Below, piece by piece: positions 27,439 to 57,900 of a DNA stretch of 64,000 nucleotides; within the stretch, counting starts at the first letter, position 1, and each line of letters opens with the position of its first letter. Below the pieces are notes generated by a model. It ran no database searches. It was not told the origin of the DNA and saw only the letters and a list, made by a program, of their open reading frames with translations. This stretch comes from Hippea maritima DSM 10411 (GTDB lineage: Bacteria; Campylobacterota_A; Desulfurellia; Desulfurellales; Hippeaceae). A program made the position numbers and the translations under genes. Location of the stretch: assembly GCF_000194135.1 (NCBI RefSeq), contig NC_015318.1, forward strand, positions 634,501 through 698,500. Direction: 5' to 3'.

Positions 27439-27714
27439 TTAATCGTTGATAGTCTGCTTTAAAACCTGTCCGGCCTTAAATGCAGGGATTTTGTGTGGTT
27501 TGATTTTGATTACTTCGCCCGTCTGGGGGTTGCGTCCGGTTCTTTCGCCTCTCTGGCTGACATAGAACTTGCCAAATCCCGTTATAGATACACTCTTACC
27601 GCTCTTTAGAGCCTCGGAAACCACATCGACGAAAGCATTAACAAAAGCATTAGCGCCCTTAACAGAACTTCCCATCTTCCTTGCAATAGCCTCAACAAGT
27701 TCAGACTTGGTCAT
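27439..27714 (-). CDS. HU-family DNA-binding protein
   Basis: A 91-residue HU/IHF protein with the DNA-binding arm 'GRNPQTGEVIKI' and core 'GKSVSITGFGKFYV'. It bends DNA and may assist recombination, replication or transcription of the element. The true start is the ATG at 27714 with AAGGAGG. The same frame is open upstream through the promoter into an ATPase remnant, but that is fortuitous. A GCCCATC-type hairpin (27744-27769) lies in the leader. Confidence 0.9.
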   Translation of the reverse strand: MTKSELVEAIARKMGSSVKGANAFVNAFVDVVSEALKSGKSVSITGFGKFYVSQRGERTGRNPQTGEVIKIKPHKIPAFKAGQVLKQTIND

Positions 27715-27775
27715 AAAAAATACCTCCTTAAAACATATTTGAGGCCAAGCCCATCGTGATGGGCTTGGTTCCCCT

Positions 27776-27800
27776 CTATATATAGGGAAGGGTGTTACAG
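27776..27800 (-). promoter_or_regulatory. Element regulon motif, site 6
   Basis: On the minus strand CTGTAACAC-CCTTCC-CTATATATAG followed by AGGGG, upstream of the HU operon. Confidence 0.8.
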
Positions 27801-27805
27801 TTTTG

Positions 27806-28653
27806 TGGATGAGTGTTATGAGTATATGAGTAGAATTTTTTTGAATTATATCCACCTCTCCGCCCAGCACTTCAGACTCAAGAAAACTCGATACATCTCC
27901 AAAAAAGCTTTTGCCTGAAGAATAAAACTCAAAGTAATGTTTAAAATCAACAACGGGAAAAGGAAGCTTAAGCCCTATTGGGCTTCCAAGTAAAGCATAA
28001 GAAAAGACAAGATTTTCCAGGTAGCCCATCATCTGTATAAGTGTTGCTCTCTCTGCCGGTAAAAAGAATACCTCTCCTGGGAATAAGGAGCTTTTTACGC
28101 AGAAATTTAAGAAATCCTCTAATCTGCTTTTAAATGTATTGTATGCTTTTGAGCCCTTTCTTAAATTTCTCTTAGTTATAGGTTTATTTGTTTTTATGGT
28201 TATTGTATTTCCCTCAAAAACTGCTTCTATATTTCTTCCATAAAGCTCTGCGGATACAGAGCTATTTTCATTCTCATCTCTCATGCTGAAAATGTTTTCA
28301 ATTTCAAACTCTGCGTCTCCAAATGACTGCTTTGAATTCAATACTCTTTTTCCGAAATCTTTGCATACACCGTTTATCCGTTTTTCTATTCTTGCTCTGT
28401 TTTTGGTTAAATACTCCTCTAAATCTATGCTATAGCTTCTATTTCTTACCAGCCCATCTATAACTTTATCCTGAAGTTCGCTATCAAAGTTAAAAGATAT
28501 GTTGGGACTCGACTTCAGCAGGTCGTAAAGCAGATATGAAAGGTAGGTTTTTCCAGTGTTGTTAAAGCCCATAAAGACCGTTAAAGGCTTAAGCTCTATC
28601 TGGGCCTCTTTTATATTGCCAAAATTCCTTATTGTAAACCTCAATGAAAACAT
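27806..28653 (-). pseudogene. AAA ATPase (OLD/ABC-like), 3'-truncated
   Basis: About 280 residues of an SMC/OLD-type ATPase: start 'MFSLRFTIRNFGNIKEAQIEL' and Walker A 'GFNNTGKT'. The C-terminal part with signature motif and Walker B is missing. The frame runs on, without a stop, through regulon site 6 and into HU. Such ATPases often belong to defence systems. The upstream promoter (minus strand TTGACA, 16 bases, TATTAT at 28707-28680) is intact, so transcription could continue into HU. Most likely a remnant cut by a deletion or insertion. Confidence 0.7.
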
Positions 28654-41494: not shown

Positions 41495-42415
41495 TTAGTT
41501 TCCAGGCTCGGCAAGCTTTACAAAACCGAGAACATTTGCGTATTCAGGTTTGTTAGGTATTACAAAGCCATAAGACTCTTTAAGATTGTCGTCTATAAAA
41601 TACGCGCCTCCGCCGGCTACTATGAATGTGTCTATCCTGTCGAGAACGGTTTGCAGTTTTGAGGATTTGCTTATAGTTTCAAAAATTCGCTTGGTATAGG
41701 TTTCCTTTTTCTGTTCAATTAGTTCACTTATGTCGTATTCATGCCTTTTGTACTTAAACTTACCGGCTGCGAGCACCTGCACAACGCTGACTTCAGGCAC
41801 GTAGCTCTTGACTATATTCGCACTTATATGCTCAGAGACCGTTGAAGCCATCTCGCAAACGCCCATGTCTTTATAGCCAGCGGACAACTCAGGGATAGGC
41901 ATGCCCTCTATGACAGTTAGCACGTCAATCGTATTAAACCCTATATCAAGAATTACGGCATTCTCAGGGGATCCCGCATACTTCCATATGCCAAGTCCTT
42001 GAGGGAAAACTTTTACCCTGAAAGAAAACACCGTGTCATTGACAATGAAGTTCTCGCAGGCTTGTTTTAAAATTTTAGACTTTGCTTTAAACTCGCTTAT
42101 GGATAAGGATAGAGTAACTAAATCAGGCTGCAGGCCGTTATCCTTGATGATCTTATACAAAAATAACGGTGAGTATGTTGTTAGAAAATCATTTGCCCTT
42201 GTCGGTAAAACATTACCCTTATAAAGAGCTTTTTCTCCGACAAGGTATTCCTCGCCGTTATAGTTAAAACTGGTTTTCTTTCCTATGCCTAAATCGTCTA
42301 CCTCGCCTGCAGGTGCAATAGCAGTTATGAACTTATCATAAGAAGTGCTACCATTCTTATCCTTGTAAGCATACTTAATAAAGCTATAACCCGTATCAAC
42401 CGACAAGATTACCAT
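41495..42415 (-). CDS. parM: ParM-like actin-type segregation ATPase
   Basis: A 306-residue actin-fold protein: phosphate 1 motif 'ILSVDTGYSFIKYA', phosphate 2 motif 'NAVILDIGFNTIDVL' and adenosine motif 'DTFIVAGGGAYFI'. ParM filaments push plasmid copies apart. Its presence in an integrated element argues for an extrachromosomal stage. The ATG at 42415 follows GGAGGTGATG. It is co-transcribed with ssb. The spacer to ssb is a run of 9-base GAGGTT-like repeats. Confidence 0.85.
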   Translation of the reverse strand: MVILSVDTGYSFIKYAYKDKNGSTSYDKFITAIAPAGEVDDLGIGKKTSFNYNGEEYLVGEKALYKGNVLPTRANDFLTTYSPLFLYKIIKDNGLQPDLVTLSLSISEFKAKSKILKQACENFIVNDTVFSFRVKVFPQGLGIWKYAGSPENAVILDIGFNTIDVLTVIEGMPIPELSAGYKDMGVCEMASTVSEHISANIVKSYVPEVSVVQVLAAGKFKYKRHEYDISELIEQKKETYTKRIFETISKSSKLQTVLDRIDTFIVAGGGAYFIDDNLKESYGFVIPNKPEYANVLGFVKLAEPGN

Positions 42416-42425
42416 AAACATCACC

Positions 42426-42511
42426 TCCAACTAATTTCAGAACCTCTAAAACCTCTACAACTTTTAGAACCTTTACACCCTCTACAACTTCCAAAACCTC
42501 CACAACCTCTA
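42426..42511 (-). repeat. Purine-rich ~9-bp tandem repeats between ssb and parM
   Basis: About nine degenerate units of the form (G/A)AGGTT(G/T)T(A/G) on the minus strand. Each resembles a ribosome-binding site. Confidence 0.6.
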
Positions 42512-42925
42512 TCAAAACGGCACATCGTTATCGCCAGAAATCTCCACCATAAAGTTGCTCTGCCTCTCTTCTTCCTCAGCAGGCATGTTTTTTAAAGCTG
42601 ACAAAAACTGAATTTTATTAGCTAGCACCTCGTGTTTTGAACGCCTGATGCCATTTGAGTCTTCCCATGTTCTATACCTCAAGCGCCCCTCAACAAAGAC
42701 GGGAAAACCTTTGGTTAGAAATTCGCCCACAGCCTCAGCCAACCTGCCAAAAACCACAACATCGACAAAAAGGGTCTCTGTTTTTATATTCCCGTTTTCG
42801 TCCTTGCCTGCAGGCGTATTGACCGCCATGTTAAATGTGGCAACGCCTAAACCCGCTGGTGTATATCTTAACTCAGGATCTCGGGTTAAATTGCCCATCA
42901 GGAAAACTTTATTCAGACTTGGCAT
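42512..42925 (-). CDS. ssb: Single-stranded DNA-binding protein
   Basis: A 137-residue SSB with the OB-fold start 'LNKVFLMGNLTRDPELRYTPAG', 'VDVVVFGRLAE' and a short linker to the acidic tip 'GDNDVPF'. It covers single-stranded DNA during transfer and replication. First gene of ssb-parM under site 9, next to the hairpin-rich block, as in the leading regions of conjugative plasmids. Confidence 0.95.
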   Translation of the reverse strand: MPSLNKVFLMGNLTRDPELRYTPAGLGVATFNMAVNTPAGKDENGNIKTETLFVDVVVFGRLAEAVGEFLTKGFPVFVEGRLRYRTWEDSNGIRRSKHEVLANKIQFLSALKNMPAEEEERQSNFMVEISGDNDVPF

Positions 42926-43002: not shown

Positions 43003-43027
43003 CTATATATAGGCAGGGGTGTTACAG
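43003..43027 (-). promoter_or_regulatory. Element regulon motif, site 9
   Basis: On the minus strand CTGTAACAC-CCCTGC-CTATATATAG. The ssb leader behind it holds a TAGCCGAG/CTCGGCTA hairpin (42960-42990). Confidence 0.8.
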
Positions 43028-43034
43028 TTTTTTA

Positions 43035-43252
43035 CTTTGCTACATTTGTTGCAGTTGTTACAACTGCAACTATTGCACACTTTGCACGGATTGCTACTTT
43101 TCAAGAGAAAAGCGCTCAAATTTTGACACTGGTACAAACTACGTTTGTTGTACTTTCCGCAAATTTTATACAGTTGTTACAGTTGCACACTTTGCTACAT
43201 TGGTTGCATTAGTTGCAAATGTAACAACTGTACACTTTGCAACAGTTGACTA
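43035..43252. repeat. Repeat-rich locus, possible centromere or origin
   Basis: A perfect inverted repeat GTTGCAGTTG-TTA-CAACTGCAAC (43048-43070), many further GTTGCA, TTACAGTTG and ACACTTTGC units, and a second related dyad near 43210-43230. No gene is supported. Near parM a parC-like centromere is plausible; an origin is the alternative. Confidence 0.55.
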
Positions 43253-43261
43253 TATATGAAT

Positions 43262-43975
43262 GAGGGCGAGCGGAGAGCGAGGGCGATGCCCCCGTGGAGC
43301 TGAGCCGTTAGGAGCCCTAATGTGTTTGCTATGGTTTACTGGAAGTCACGAGCGAGGTTGATATACCGCTTGTCGGTATATCACTACCGAGCGAGTAGGC
43401 GAAGCGATAGGGGGGATCGTTCCCGAAGCGAACAGCGAGCCCGAGGAGCGCATCCGCTCGTTCCGAGCCCGTCTTAACAGAGAAAGGAAAACGGAACATC
43501 GTCAAAGAAAGAGTATGATCTTCTATCTGCTGCAAGATTAAAAAGAGACAAGAACGCAAAAGACGGGCTCGGTGATTGCCTGCAAGCGAAAGAAAACCCC
43601 TCGTGTAGCCGAGCTTGTGTATGGCGTTGGGCAACTGGCATGTTGGCAGGCCAACCTGTGTTGGCAAAAGCCCAAAGCAACCGGTGAGCGATAGAGGGGT
43701 TTTCTTGAAGCGTCCGAGCCCTTTGATATACCTGGCTAATGGAACTGCACATTTAAATGAGCAAAAAGTTAACGGGTTGCATGTAGAACAGAGAGAAAAG
43801 GGCTCGGGGCGAGGCAATAGAGCGAGGAGCGAGTTAAGGAGCAAGGCAGACGTATCAAAACTTGATAGTGGTATTGTCAAGGTTGCACGAAAAACGCCCA
43901 ATTTCGACTTCAGAGGTATAAACCCACAGGGGGGTGTCATATCGTGCAACAGAGGGCAAATATGAGCATCTCAGG
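43262..43975. ncRNA. Large hairpin-rich non-coding block
   Basis: About 700 bases, GC-richer than the rest, with no convincing gene. Perfect stems in order: GATATACCG/CGGTATATC (43360-43382); GAGCG/CGCTC (43446-43459); arm A, 13 bp, 43463-43475 with 43560-43572; arm B, 13 bp, 43590-43602 with 43694-43706, enclosing TTGGGC/GCCCAA (43627-43675) and GTTGG/CCAAC; arm C, 11 bp, 43714-43724 with 43797-43807. Arms are separated by 7-17 bases only. Many GAGCGAG repeats occur. It may be a large structured RNA, an origin of transfer, or single-strand promoters of the leading region. Confidence 0.5.
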
Positions 43976-44022
43976 GGGGTCTGAGAAAAAGATGTTGATC
44001 GTTTTTTTTGGTTTTGACTTTT

Positions 44023-44460
44023 TTAAGACAGGAAGGATTTTGCAAACTCTCTTCTGCACTTCATCCGTAGCTGCTTTATACGCTTTTTGTAGTAAAAGAG
44101 AGTACGAGAATTGGATATATCCACGCTGTAGAATTTATTCAATTCAGCGAGGATTGTTTGAGATTTTACGGTACTGCCATTTTTATAGCCGTTGCACAAT
44201 CGATTAAATATATACTTATCAAGCTTATCAAGCTCCGGGTGGGTAATAAGTTTCTCTCTTCTCTTTTTGCTTATACGGCTTAGAGATATTCTCAACAACT
44301 GCTCGTTGCGGTAGATTTTGCTCAAGGCGTTGAGGATAATTTTATCGGGATATGCAGGCGGTAGAGAGATAATTTTCTTCTTAACCAATATCTTCAGGTA
44401 AGCGACCGGAAGTTTGTATTCTTTGGCAATATCGCTTATTAGCTCTTTGTTATCATTCAT
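44023..44460 (-). CDS. Unknown 145-aa basic protein
   Basis: A highly basic, all-helical protein (pI clearly high). The start 'ELISDIAKEYKLPVAYLKILV' looks like a helix-turn-helix. It could bind DNA of the adjacent hairpin-rich block. No family recognised. It follows the Cys-rich gene by 38 bases. Confidence 0.5.
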   Translation of the reverse strand: MNDNKELISDIAKEYKLPVAYLKILVKKKIISLPPAYPDKIILNALSKIYRNEQLLRISLSRISKKRREKLITHPELDKLDKYIFNRLCNGYKNGSTVKSQTILAELNKFYSVDISNSRTLFYYKKRIKQLRMKCRREFAKSFLS

Positions 44461-46660: not shown

Positions 46661-49600
46661 TCACCCATGCTTTTCCACCATCATCCTAATCGCTTCCGCA
46701 TAACTTATTCCTTTGGTTTTAACCATTCTCTCTATCTCGGAGTTTTCCTTTGGATCGGATGTAAACAGATAATAGGTGTATTTATCAACTATTAGGCGCC
46801 CTACGCCCAACCCAAACGGCGAGTCGATAAATATCTCGGAATATTTTGGCTTATTACTCTTAACTGTTTTAAGGATTTTCATCACAAACTCATCGTAATC
46901 TATAATCTTATCGTGTTTGGCTTTTTCGAAATCGGGAGATGCAAGCAAGAACTTCCAGGCGCTGTTTGCCCTTATAACGTCGCCTACCTTGCCAAAATTC
47001 TTCAAGTCAAGCAGGGACTGGACAACAACGCTGAACGAACCCCTATACTTTCTTGCCCTTCTGTAGCCCTCTTCAATGACGTCGGCAAATATATCACTGC
47101 TCTCAAGGAACTGCCACGCTTCATCAAAGATAATGAGACGCTTTGAGCTCCTATCAGACAGGTATAAATCCCTCGTTACGGCGTTGATTATCTGCAGGGT
47201 TACAACCTTAAACAGCTCCTTTTGTGGTTTTAAATGCTCAAGCTCCAGAACCGCAAAATCATCATCGGATATATTAAACGTGGATCTGCCGTTAAACCAT
47301 CTACCGTAGTTGCCCTGTGAGGTAAAGTCATAGAGGTTAAAGGCAAGTATTGAGGCAGTGTCTATGTAGAACTCCTTGTTCGGATCGTCTTCAACAAAGT
47401 CTTTGTAGTTTTTAAGAAAATGGTAAATAGTGTTTATATCGGCGTCGTTGCCTTCAGACTGCCATGCAAGCCTGATTGCGTTTTTAATAATTGTGTCGGC
47501 CGTTTCAGCGCGCTCTATGTCTATTTGTCCTGTTGAGGAAAGTATCATCTGCTTGATTATGGCGGCGAGGACTGCAAGCTCATCTTCTATATCGCGAACA
47601 TTCGTGAAAGGATTTATGACTATATCTGATTCTTTTGTAAACTCTAAAAACCTACCGTCAAAGAGATGAGTGAGTTTTTTATAGCTGCCGCCTATGTCAA
47701 TGATCCTTATTTTGTCTCCAGCAGAGAAGTAGTTGAACACGATGTAGTTAATCAGGAATGAGTTGTGATTGATCTGGCCGTCGGCAAAGTAATTGTGCGT
47801 ATCCTCAACGGATACATCGTAAACATCGGCATTCTCGGCAGGCTCAACGGATACTACCTCATCGAAGTAGTGGGTAGAGATGAATTCTTCCCATTCTTTT
47901 AAAGTGTCATTCTGCAAGTATGAGTTTTTGATTATATTAAGAGCATGCTTTCTTGATAACCTTTTGATGCCGTTTTTATATTCCTCAAAAGCAAACTCAT
48001 TACCGTTTTTCAGAAGTATTTCCTGCTCATGCTCATAGTAATATTCACTGTCTTTATATAGAGCAATTAAATCCTCAATAAAAATCTTCGTATATTTTTC
48101 AGGCAACACGTCAATATCATCATTAAAGTCTGTTTTTAAAACCTCATTTAACTTATCCTGTCTCTCCGATTTTATCGCCTTTATTAACCTGAATATTCTG
48201 GCAAATCTTCTTACGCTTGACCCGCTTATAATAAGCACATTCTTACTATCGCCGTTAGTGGTATTTTTAACCTGAACATTGCAAACAACCCCAAAACCCT
48301 GCTCAAGGACGGTTCTAACCTGTTCTGCAAGCTCTTTAGTTGCCAGTGGAATTTCTATTTGATTCTTCTGGCTGTTAATACGAGCTGCAACATCGATCAA
48401 CCCCTCTATAAAGCCCACCCAGAAAGGCTTTGATGCATTCATGGTGATAAAACGAGGAATTTTTTTTGTGGAAAAAGACGTCTCCGTATTATCACCATCC
48501 TTTAGATAATAATTTATAAGTATTTTTTTTATTTTACTGCCACTCTGATTTGGTTTAGCGGCATCTATTGCGTCGGCATACACCAAACCAAACAAATACC
48601 CTACATTTTCATTGCTCCAATTTCCAAATCTCATACAGGAAAGCTCGACGGGAAGAATGTCGCCTTTTTTGAGATCTCTTGCGTGTGTCCATGCAGTATT
48701 TTCCACTTTTAGCCTATGGTCAGGTGTGCACTGAATAACCCTGCCGAATTTGGTTTTTATTTTAACTGTTTTCTCATTTTTAAAGCTAAATGTTTTTAAT
48801 ACTGGTTTTGTGTCGATAGAGCCGTTATTGTCGCTTAAGACTCTATCGCCCTCATGAATTTCTCTTAAATCACAGAAGCCTGTTTCGGTTAGTATTTGTC
48901 CGTCTGTCCTGCATTTTCCTGAGCCAGTTGATGCGGCAACGAATACGTTGTAATTATCCGCATGCTCGTCAAACACATCAACGGATATCAGCTGACCTTT
49001 TCTGCCGTGAAAAAGAAGAACAGGTTCTCCTGCACCTCTAAAATCTGCCTGCAGGGGCGCCATTGTCGCTGCAAGCTCATCCTGCAAAACAAAATCTCTG
49101 TCTATCTTGCGTATATTATCGCCTTCAGTGTAAAGCCCAAAGGGTAGGGCGGATATAAAAAGGATTGGTAATATACCCTTATCTTCCTGCATTGTGAAGC
49201 CGTGTTCTTCCCATATGCGCTTTACCCTTGCTATAGACTGTAGAGCCGTATCATCATCGTAAGCATACATCCAGATAATAGGCAAGACTTTTACAAACCT
49301 TGTGTTATTATCTATCTGATCTATTGCCCAGACAAATTCCTCTTTTTTTCTGGCAAGACTCGGAGCAAGCGTTCCAAAGCCCTGCTGCTGAAGAACAAGG
49401 TTGGTCTTGAGCCCTATTTCTTTTTTGATTTGCGCGTCGTTTTTATAGACGTTAAGTGTAAATATAAATGGCGTTATAATCTGCTCGGCATCGGATGCAA
49501 CACCCCAGATACCACCGATGAGCTGGTTGGTTATAAACGTGTTTAAACCGTCCGAGCCACCCGGGAAAAGCTTGGGTGTGGTGCATTTGTAGATTTTACT

Positions 49601-50257
49601 ACCGACACGTATATCTGATAGCCCCGCTTGAATAACCGTTTCGGAGGTAATGATCTGCTTGTTTATCGGCTTTAGGTCATCGTAGCCTTTTCCCACAATA
49701 ACCCTGTCGTTAAACAGGCGTCTTAGAGTGTTAAGCAACTCACTGACAGGCAGAATTCTCGGATTAAGCCTTGCGCCTGAGAGTATCTCTGTTGCATTGT
49801 ATTTAAAAGCGTCTAAGTCAAGGTCTTTGGCTTTTTTAACAGGAATTTTAATGGCAATAAAAGAACGAAAATACCTTGAAGGAATATCAGATGCCTGCTT
49901 TATGCCTTTTTCTGCTCCCTCAAGCCAGAAATCAGCATACCTTTCAACAGCAAGGTTAATTATGTCATACTGACGGGTTTTTAAATTTTTATAAATATCA
50001 AGTATTGGTTTAACATAAGGATCAGCAAAGAGAATAAATTGAACAACAGAGTCATCAGGAACTAAAGACAATAAGCTTTTGAGCATGTTTATAGTTGTCT
50101 CCCCCATAAAAAAACGGGGAGTAACTTCGTAAATATAACCTATTGTGTCGTCCTGGTTGTAATAAATTTTAAGATTTTCATCGTAAGCCAGATAAGGCAA
50201 ATAATCGCTGAATTGGTTTCTTCTGGTCATGTTTTTAAGTTCTCTTAAGGTAAGCAA
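46661..50257 (-). CDS. traC: TraC ATPase interrupted by an intein
   Basis: A 1198-residue precursor; after splicing TraC would have 814 residues. TraC is the VirB4-like ATPase of F-type pilus assembly. The N-terminal domain has 'DDTIGYIYEVTPRFFMG'. Walker A is split: 'STGSGK' (443-448), intein (449-832), then 'SFLINYIVF'. Walker B is 'RLIIFDEAWQFL', followed by 'RRARKYRGSFSVVVQSLLDL'. GTG or ATG start with AAGG upstream. Function depends on splicing because the P-loop Ser is extein residue +1. It is the only gene under site 11. Confidence 0.95.
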   Translation of the reverse strand: MLTLRELKNMTRRNQFSDYLPYLAYDENLKIYYNQDDTIGYIYEVTPRFFMGETTINMLKSLLSLVPDDSVVQFILFADPYVKPILDIYKNLKTRQYDIINLAVERYADFWLEGAEKGIKQASDIPSRYFRSFIAIKIPVKKAKDLDLDAFKYNATEILSGARLNPRILPVSELLNTLRRLFNDRVIVGKGYDDLKPINKQIITSETVIQAGLSDIRVGSKIYKCTTPKLFPGGSDGLNTFITNQLIGGIWGVASDAEQIITPFIFTLNVYKNDAQIKKEIGLKTNLVLQQQGFGTLAPSLARKKEEFVWAIDQIDNNTRFVKVLPIIWMYAYDDDTALQSIARVKRIWEEHGFTMQEDKGILPILFISALPFGLYTEGDNIRKIDRDFVLQDELAATMAPLQADFRGAGEPVLLFHGRKGQLISVDVFDEHADNYNVFVAASTGSGKCRTDGQILTETGFCDLREIHEGDRVLSDNNGSIDTKPVLKTFSFKNEKTVKIKTKFGRVIQCTPDHRLKVENTAWTHARDLKKGDILPVELSCMRFGNWSNENVGYLFGLVYADAIDAAKPNQSGSKIKKILINYYLKDGDNTETSFSTKKIPRFITMNASKPFWVGFIEGLIDVAARINSQKNQIEIPLATKELAEQVRTVLEQGFGVVCNVQVKNTTNGDSKNVLIISGSSVRRFARIFRLIKAIKSERQDKLNEVLKTDFNDDIDVLPEKYTKIFIEDLIALYKDSEYYYEHEQEILLKNGNEFAFEEYKNGIKRLSRKHALNIIKNSYLQNDTLKEWEEFISTHYFDEVVSVEPAENADVYDVSVEDTHNYFADGQINHNSFLINYIVFNYFSAGDKIRIIDIGGSYKKLTHLFDGRFLEFTKESDIVINPFTNVRDIEDELAVLAAIIKQMILSSTGQIDIERAETADTIIKNAIRLAWQSEGNDADINTIYHFLKNYKDFVEDDPNKEFYIDTASILAFNLYDFTSQGNYGRWFNGRSTFNISDDDFAVLELEHLKPQKELFKVVTLQIINAVTRDLYLSDRSSKRLIIFDEAWQFLESSDIFADVIEEGYRRARKYRGSFSVVVQSLLDLKNFGKVGDVIRANSAWKFLLASPDFEKAKHDKIIDYDEFVMKILKTVKSNKPKYSEIFIDSPFGLGVGRLIVDKYTYYLFTSDPKENSEIERMVKTKGISYAEAIRMMVEKHG
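47762..48913 (-). other. Intein with LAGLIDADG endonuclease in TraC
   Basis: A 384-residue insert starting with Cys449 and ending His831-Asn832, followed by Ser. The splicing blocks are complete: 'CRTDGQILTETG' (A), 'TPDHRLKVE' (B), 'VYDVSVEDTHNYFADG' (F), 'INHN' (G). Two LAGLIDADG-like helices, 'YLFGLVYADA' (about 554-563) and 'FIEGLIDVA' (about 616-624), keep their Asp residues, so homing may be active. Confidence 0.9.
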
Positions 50258-50519: not shown

Positions 50520-50631
50520 GATGAAAGGCGGATGTTTTACGCCACCATTACCCTTTCTATCCAATTGTTGTTCCTCCTTACTAAAAGTAAGCCCCAATGT
50601 TAGAATGAGTAAACAAAGCGGTAAACAAAGT

Positions 50632-50729
50632 GGGGTACTTAAAGTGGACGGATGGGGTACTTAAAGTGGACGGATCTGACAAAGTGGGGTACTTAAAGTG
50701 GACGGATGGGGTACTTAAAGTGGACGGAT
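50632..50729. repeat. Four 22-bp iterons, candidate oriV
   Basis: Identical direct repeats with core GGGGTACTTAAAGTGG at 50632-50653, 50654-50675, 50686-50707 and 50708-50729: two tandem pairs spaced by 10 bases. They lie 245 bases from the Rep-like gene. Confidence 0.85.
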
Positions 50730-50754
50730 TTTCCAAAAATTGCAGAATAGTAAT

Positions 50755-50912
50755 ATAGAATAGGCTATTCTATATAGAATAGAATATAGAATAGCCTATA
50801 GCCGAACCCCTTACGGGCTTTTGGGAGCCCACGGGGTTCGGCGAAAAACAATGAATAAGGGAAATCACTCTGTACACAGTACAAAGTAATTCACTATGTA
50901 CAGAGTACAAAA
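50755..50912. other. AT-rich palindromes and GC hairpin beside the iterons
   Basis: AGAATAG-G-CTATTCT and related AGAATAG copies (50757-50802), then a strong hairpin GCCGAACCCC/GGGGTTCGGC (50802-50841) with an inner GGGCT/AGCCC, then two TGTACANAGTACA units (about 50872-50909). This looks like the melting and control part of a replication origin. Confidence 0.55.
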
Positions 50913-56530: not shown

Positions 56531-57643
56531 TCAAGTATTACCGAAGAGTTTCTCCACCGCCTCCCTTTTTGCATCCGGTATAAGATGGCTATACCTCTCT
56601 GTCATTGCCAGTGTTTTATGCCCCATAAGTTCTTTAATCGTATAGATAGGTGTTCCCTGTATGGCAAGCCAGGAAGCAAATGTGTGGCGTAAGGTGTGGA
56701 AGACTACCTTGTCTCTTGGATCCGTTATGCCGTCATTTAGGCCGAGTTTTCTTACAACGGTTTTAAATGTTCCAGGGATTTGTTTATAGGGTTTTCCATT
56801 TCTGTGAAATACAAACCCGCTGGAATTTTTTGGTTTTTCTCTCTTGTATTTAGCATAAAGCAAATCTCTTAGGCTGTCTGTCATATATGCAACCCTGCTT
56901 TCACTGTTCTTAGGGTCTTTTATTGTGATTATGCCGTTTTGAAAGTCTATATCTTGCCAGGTGAGATTTGCTATTTCGCCAAAACGCATACCGGTGTAAA
57001 GAGATAGATAGGCCATCTCATAAACTTGAATTGAATGTTTTTTAAGTTCACTGAGCAATTTTTCAGCTTCCTCTTTAGTAAGGAATCTCATTCTCCTGTT
57101 GTCCTTTTTGGGCTTTTTGACTTTTGCAGCTGGATTAGCACCAAAATAAAAACCCCACTCAATTGCCTTATTGAACACCTGGCGCATGACAGCAATGGCA
57201 TATTCTATTGTTCTTGGTGCTTTTTCGTTTTTTATCATTTCTTTTTTGACTTTTTCTATGTCAAGAGGGGATATGTTGTTGAGCGTTTTTTTGTCTATAA
57301 TAGGGAATATCCAGAGTCTTAGAAGGCTTTCCTCTCTATTGTATGATTTTTTTTCTTTTGCGTAAGGAAGGTATTTCTCTTTTACAAACTGCTCAAACGC
57401 TATTTTTGCTTGCCTTCGGTCGTAATATTCACCTGATACAAGTTCTGACTTAATTTTCGCTTCTATCTCTTTAGCACCCTGCAGGTTTGTGCCTGAAACT
57501 GTTTGCCTTACTCTCTTGCCGTGGAAGGAGACAGAAATCCTGAAAGTTTTATTTTGCTTGACAACATACCCGCATTTAGGGCATGATTTTTTCTTGGCAG
57601 AGTACTCCATCCTGCAGTTAGGACAGACAATGTATATTGCCAT
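56531..57643 (-). CDS. int: Tyrosine integrase
   Basis: A 370-residue recombinase: N-terminal zinc ribbon ('CPNCRMEY'...'CPKCGYV'), AP2-like arm-binding part, core-binding SAM-like domain, and catalytic domain with Arg in 'TGMRFGEIANL', 'HTLRHTFASWL', 'LMGHKTLAMTERYSHL' (His, Tyr). It recombines attP with tRNA-Leu. The ATG at 57643 follows GGGAGAGG; a longer TTG frame is unlikely. It lies about 200 bases from attR. Confidence 0.95.
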   Translation of the reverse strand: MAIYIVCPNCRMEYSAKKKSCPKCGYVVKQNKTFRISVSFHGKRVRQTVSGTNLQGAKEIEAKIKSELVSGEYYDRRQAKIAFEQFVKEKYLPYAKEKKSYNREESLLRLWIFPIIDKKTLNNISPLDIEKVKKEMIKNEKAPRTIEYAIAVMRQVFNKAIEWGFYFGANPAAKVKKPKKDNRRMRFLTKEEAEKLLSELKKHSIQVYEMAYLSLYTGMRFGEIANLTWQDIDFQNGIITIKDPKNSESRVAYMTDSLRDLLYAKYKREKPKNSSGFVFHRNGKPYKQIPGTFKTVVRKLGLNDGITDPRDKVVFHTLRHTFASWLAIQGTPIYTIKELMGHKTLAMTERYSHLIPDAKREAVEKLFGNT

Positions 57644-57838
57644 CTTAAGCCTCTCCCTATCATCCTGCTTGTGCCATAAGGGCACATTTCGGACAAACTC
57701 TCCGATAAAATAGCACAAAATGATAAAAAAATAAACAGTTTCCTAAAGAGAATAAATAGCCTATAATCGCTATTGTTATAGGCTATTTTAAAAAAAATAT
57801 TGAGCAAACAAAGATATAAGATAATCCATTATCATTGT

Positions 57839-57900
57839 CTTAAAATCCCTTGGAGCTATGCTCCGTGTGGGTTCGATTCCCACCCTCGGCACCACTTAAA
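57839..57900 (+). repeat. attR, 62-bp direct repeat of tRNA-Leu 3' end
   Basis: Carries the tRNA-Leu anticodon-loop-to-CCA part plus CTTAAA, with two compensatory variable-arm changes against attL. It has no 5' half, so it is not a functional tRNA. It marks the right end of the element. Confidence 0.9.

Follow-up and report, generated by a model that had tools for sequence, protein, structure and literature searches.

Hairpins with variable yet paired stems on mobile elements of the genus Hippea: possible single-strand initiation sites

Several kinds of short hairpin are known from mobile and bacterial DNA. The ssi/PAS sites, exemplified by ssiA of pAMbeta1, the sites of phiX174 and of ColE1-type plasmids and ssiA/B of RSF1010, lie near plasmid origins and start complementary-strand synthesis; PAS sites carry an AAGCGG hexamer. 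The REP/BIME or Rickettsia palindromic elements are short palindromic repeats. In pAMbeta1, ssiA lies downstream of the ori and needs PriA, and the use of the sso hairpins of rolling-circle plasmids is host-restricted (both PMC5703833), while SSB stimulates the Frpo sites that F-type plasmids have upstream of ssb (PMC11541004).

The hairpins described here share traits with all of these. Like ssi/PAS sites, they are found near (predicted) replication origins, although their design, a stem of free sequence combined with a fixed bulge and loop, is common to integrative conjugative elements (ICEs), plasmids and a phage, they are candidate sites known from sequence, and they differ in sequence from the known sites. 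As with Frpo, the element is F-type, and the block studied here has ssb downstream of it and would act as a folded single strand; unlike Frpo, the Hippea hairpins have short stems, yielded no -35/-10 pair in a linear scan and also occur outside conjugative elements. With sso they share the combination of a hairpin, a conserved loop motif and restriction to a host, and TAGCG, present in several copies, resembles the conserved sso loop motif; however, the initiators of the carriers are of theta type (Rep_3, phage O-like) and no rolling-circle Rep was seen. Like the REP/BIME or Rickettsia elements, they are short palindromic repeats with one copy in a coding gene, but their stems are free in sequence and copies are found on mobile elements only, so that neither the dispersed chromosomal copies nor the conserved stem of REP-type repeats is observed.

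The window, a stretch of 64,000 nucleotides, belongs to the complete chromosome (1,694,430 bases) of a hot-spring bacterium of the genus Hippea. The hairpin block sits in a 55-kb F-type ICE in tRNA-Leu, with ssb on one side and tra-side genes on the other, and the element has the following features:

2410-57900, no strand: integrative element, whole, with a 62-bp tRNA-Leu duplication at both bounds (2410-2471, 57839-57900)
41495-42430, minus strand: gene for an actin-like (MreB/ParM-like) protein
42512-42925, minus strand: ssb (Pfam SSB, 2.9e-31)
44023-44460, minus strand: 145-aa protein flanking the block, with an 81% identical homologue in G002
50625-50732, plus strand: putative oriV, four 22-bp iterons GGGGTACTTAAAGTGGACGGAT
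50741-50799, no strand: palindromic repeats AGAATAGT, common to the G005 and G014 elements
50801-50842, minus strand: variant class-1 hairpin adjoining the iterons, stem GCCGAACCCC, loop (minus strand) GTGGGCTCCCAAAAGCCCGTAA
50974-52047, minus strand: 357-aa protein, putative initiator by its position only
56531-57718: tyrosine integrase, within the integrative element

The block and its immediate surroundings comprise:

43020-43245, no strand: direct and inverted repeats, TGTTACAGTTGTTGCA-type array between ssb and the block, kept in G002
43262-43985, plus strand: hairpin-rich non-coding block (stem search, shuffles, DNA folding)
43284-43419, plus strand: hairpin X, degenerate class 1, arms CGATGCCCCC (43284-43293) and GGGGGGATCG (43410-43419)
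43359-43383, plus strand: class-2 hairpin, 10-bp stem TGATATACCG, loop CTTGT, flanks GCGAGGT and CTACCGAGCG
43463-43475/43560-43572 (43463-43572), plus strand: arm pair A, 13 bp, perfect, 84-nt interior
43590-43602/43694-43706 (43590-43706), plus strand: arm pair B, 13 bp, perfect, 91-nt interior with nested stems
43714-43724/43797-43807 (43714-43807), plus strand: arm pair C, 11 bp, perfect, 72-nt interior
43869-43904, plus strand: 36-bp segment kept in the G002 element, its 15-nt core AAACGCCCAATTTCG also in the G014 element
43882-43950, plus strand: inverted repeat, 9 bp, perfect, GTTGCACGA / TCGTGCAAC, overlapping the 36-bp conserved segment

The initial annotation of this DNA had described three consecutive long-range stems in a GC-rich non-coding block, and arms A, B and C are found where it placed them, with the lengths and interiors it gave and with 17 bases between A and B and 7 between B and C. 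Among 1000 dinucleotide shuffles, perfect stems of at least 11 bp with loops of at most 100 nt averaged 0.005 and never exceeded 1, against three in the block; of 540 equal-sized windows in the background sample, 200 kb of stretches from the same chromosome, not one contained three. The small hairpin, annotated as 9 bp at 43360, proved to be one of 10 bp at 43359-43383, and hairpin X, which encloses it in its loop, had been overlooked; X has 9 of 10 pairs, one G/G mismatch and a loop of the form GTGGAGC...GCGATA. The GC content of 0.53 against about 0.41 in the surroundings, and the GAGCGAG words (10 copies in the window, 5 of them in the block, all on the plus strand), also agree with the earlier description. 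The arms of A are also able to pair with those of C; both lie outside the conserved hairpin family described below and have no relatives.

With respect to coding capacity, the long ORF at 43329-43949 (minus strand) has no Pfam match, and where the window has this ORF the homologous block of G002 (contig C137) has hairpins, four in all, adjoining the same repeats as in the window. Relatives preserve the stems rather than the reading frame, as expected of the non-coding block that had been proposed. The 43359 hairpin recurs in near-identical copies in G003 (contig C85) and in the same G002 contig. The 36-bp segment and 9-bp inverted repeat at 43869-43950 may be an oriT or a protein site.

Arm B and hairpin X belong to a new family of hairpins whose stems vary yet stay paired; a second class takes in the 43359-43383 hairpin. 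In class 1 (arm B and X), a stem whose sequence is free and whose length is about 10 bp (range 10-16) bears a loop that starts with GTGTAGC and ends with GCGGTA, the loop ends of arm B being GTGTAGC and GCGATA; class 2 has the form GCGAGGY-stem-CTTGT-stem-YTRCCG and is found in the window, L010, L012 and L022. In an alignment of eleven class-1 copies, 109 of 110 cells are paired (99.1%), a percentage that is partly by construction since long loops were trimmed and the alignment was built after the stems were known. Double changes are present in 8 of the 10 stem pairs and one-sided changes in none, and the covariation score of 0.749 compares with 0.200 +/- 0.044 for shuffled alignments and at most 0.235 for slides. 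A scan that asked for the loop ends and only 3 bp returned stems of at least 10 bp in every case, plus hairpin X, and gave no finds in 200 kb of chromosome. One homologous hairpin of G002 and G005 has constant flanks and loop ends around stem pairs that have changed together. Structure-only selection on hairpin DNA is seldom seen this clean. For short class-1 loops, DNA folding predicts that the loop ends form a GTG bulge, then a TA/TA step, then a G-G mismatch ahead of an inner CG stem.

Covarying helices would also be expected of a structured RNA, with a copy-number or regulatory function, transcribed from origin regions, and a large structured RNA was among the possibilities first raised. 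The apical loops of three copies are GNRA-like (GAAA, GCGA, GTGA), and RNA folding of the block gives z values of -4.9 and -3.7 for the plus and minus strands, respectively. DNA folding is stronger, with z values of -8.0 and -4.4 (20 shuffles for each strand and each kind of folding), and none of the 109 paired cells of the eleven class-1 copies is a G-U pair. The lack of one-sided stem changes points to Watson-Crick pairing of DNA rather than of RNA. Moreover, Rfam 15 holds no family that matches the block, one copy lies within a protein-coding gene and both orientations relative to iterons occur, so that an RNA is, in our view, quite unlikely.

The family has a narrow host range, with no members found beyond one bacterial family. 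The class-1 pattern found five copies in G003 and G005 (the latter of the same genus as the window genome), none being found by the reversed control, and in 84,980 species, where the form of the pattern used recovers about 4 of 9 known perfect copies, it matched four places, all in Hippea or Desulfurellales. Model R1 gave matches in only G000 (the window genome), G002, G003 and G005 among 61 genomes, in a search with strict filters and at most 88 candidates scored per genome, in which absence is not proof; its match in G000 is the small hairpin, arm B being missed probably owing to its long loop. The carriers are three ICEs, one Rep_3 plasmid, one Rep_3 fragment and one phage, all from Hippea, the one genus in which the searches found class 1, while variant hairpins reach a sister genus, in an ICE of which one stands beside 22-bp iterons as in the window ICE. 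The flank pattern disclosed one further true hairpin in relatives, a class-2 relative in G014, its remaining new matches there having no comparable stem. Similar DNA was not found among plasmids and phages, nor was an identical class-2 hairpin in viral contigs. Two class-1 patterns gave 0 and 2 matches in viral contigs; both matches lie in GC-rich genes, have minimal stems and are ascribed to chance.

Each origin mentioned in this account is predicted, on the basis of repeats and of the genes nearby. The hairpins of L022 accompany a Rep_3 initiator and five 22-bp iterons, and the single one of L021 a Rep_3 gene with 21-bp iterons; the G005 ICE (L020) has two sites, one by 22-bp iterons adjoining AGAATAGT palindromes; and in L010 both hairpin classes and three 23-bp repeats lie within the coding sequence of a phage initiator gene (HTH_36 + Phg_2220_C). 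In the window, L012 and L020, hairpins adjoin repeat arrays that have ssb or the actin-like gene close by. The homologues of the latter gene outside the genus are distant, and no family hairpins were seen at their loci. The repeats adjoining the window block are degenerate, and 7 kb separate the block from the 22-bp iterons of the same ICE, where the iteron region with its variant hairpin (50625-50842) has a counterpart in G014. In a strict test, from which variant hairpins were excluded because they had been found by looking at iterons, 3 of the 7 clusters have a strong 20-23-bp array no more than 800 bp away, as compared with 5.4% of element DNA (P = 0.005); such arrays number zero in 200 kb of chromosome. 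As to the 357-aa protein, it is conserved near 22-bp iterons in both G005 and G014 and has neither a Pfam match nor a PDB match of its predicted structure (model confidence 60); a new initiator family is possible.

The association is not obligatory. Hairpins occur within 1.5 kb of only 2 of about 8 Rep_3 replicons in relatives, both in one genome, which indicates that they are dispensable or optional, and a related phage initiator has none. Their orientation relative to iterons is not constant. No protein is common to all carriers, which suggests that any factor involved belongs to the host.

A selfish or neutral palindromic repeat, spread among the mobile elements of the genus and surviving in non-coding origin regions without a role in replication, could account for this distribution, since mobile repeats settling in non-coding origin DNA would give a similar picture. 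Unrelated replicons carry the same hairpins, one hairpin is nested within the loop of another, the array lies on different sides of a conserved segment in G000 and G002, and most Rep_3 replicons are devoid of hairpins. On the other hand, compensatory change keeps homologous copies paired, which requires selection on the fold, searches by model R1 and by pattern found no further copies elsewhere in the complete 1.69-Mb chromosome, and hairpins are present at repeats within a phage initiator gene. On balance we consider such repeats an unlikely explanation.

In this F-type element the block lies immediately upstream of ssb, as do Frpo sites, which SSB stimulates (PMC11541004). This position calls to mind single-stranded promoters of the Frpo or sso type, on which host RNA polymerase would be loaded once a strand is incoming or displaced, so that ssb is expressed early; the best-folding strand, plus, is the ssb template. 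The initial annotation had proposed hairpin promoters of a leading region as one of three options, and its idea of hairpins acting on single-stranded DNA fits best of the three, although not in that form: the plasmid and phage carry the same family, beside plasmid origins and within the phage initiator gene, the linear scan found no promoter-like -35/-10 pair in the block and 1 in the region against 1.4 expected, and a -35/-10 duplex would need stems longer than the 10-16 bp found. Promoters of this type are quite unlikely.

The third option, an oriT or oriT-like mobilisation site, would be read by one relaxase and copied by plasmids and phages for mobilisation in trans. The ICE has a near-complete set of F-type mating-pair genes (TraN, E, K, B, V, F, W, U, TrbC, G, H, T and TraC), and the conserved 36-bp segment with its inverted repeat at 43869-43950 would suit an oriT. 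However, neither relaxase nor coupling protein was recognised in the element with Pfam and NCBIfam, the whole genome has no TraG-D_C match indicative of a TraD-family coupling protein, tandem hairpins with differing stems are unlike an oriT, and the iteron neighbourhood would be left unexplained. We consider this reading very unlikely.

Single-strand initiation sites are suggested by three traits together, namely action at the DNA level in or close to origins, use that is optional and restriction to a host, and we tentatively favour the view that the family hairpins are folded DNA that a host factor recognises and that serves as an optional site of initiation or priming. From the family, its covariation, its range and its neighbourhood, all directly observed, we infer action as DNA, a role in priming and the host factor. 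According to this proposal, the hairpin cluster would adjoin a replication and transfer control region of the F-type ICE, and on a strand exposed at an origin, or incoming after transfer, the hairpins would fold as single-stranded DNA. The variable stem may then hold the fixed element (the predicted GTG bulge, TA/TA step and G-G mismatch) in shape for recognition by a host replication factor, which could be a primosome loader, primase or RNA polymerase, so that the complementary strand is started. Such sites would be modular and optional, and exchanged within one bacterial genus among its ICEs, plasmids and phages. No match to a known priming-site consensus was obtained in the hairpins with the tools used, nor was a consensus found in the literature, which also yielded nothing useful on the AAGCGG hexamer or on Hippea elements. 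A bolder and more doubtful extension is a host-specific DNA-hairpin code, in which an undescribed Hippea replication factor or recognition mode reads a fixed bulge on a stem of any sequence and serves strand initiation in conjugative elements, plasmids and phages alike. If the hairpins are strand-start sites, they illustrate how mobile elements that share a host but are otherwise unrelated come to use, by convergence or exchange, one priming signal, and they offer a convenient entry point to the replication and transfer of thermophiles with little genetics.

Other features of the element were noted. The TraC/VirB4-type ATPase (window 46661-50257) contains an intein with a LAGLIDADG domain, and its G002 homologue apparently has one too. 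In the G002 element (L012, L023) a PAS/GAF-EAL signalling gene apparently separates the 145-aa gene from the hairpin block, a placement deduced across a contig break. The predicted protein at 27439-28653 is a fusion of an AAA ATPase part and an HU-type DNA-binding domain. Finally, a motif of about 30 bp, CTATATATAGGCAGGGGTGTTACAG, is present in five copies (window 5313 and 6900, both on the minus strand, 27775, 43002 and 50335) and is possibly a regulator site shared across the element.
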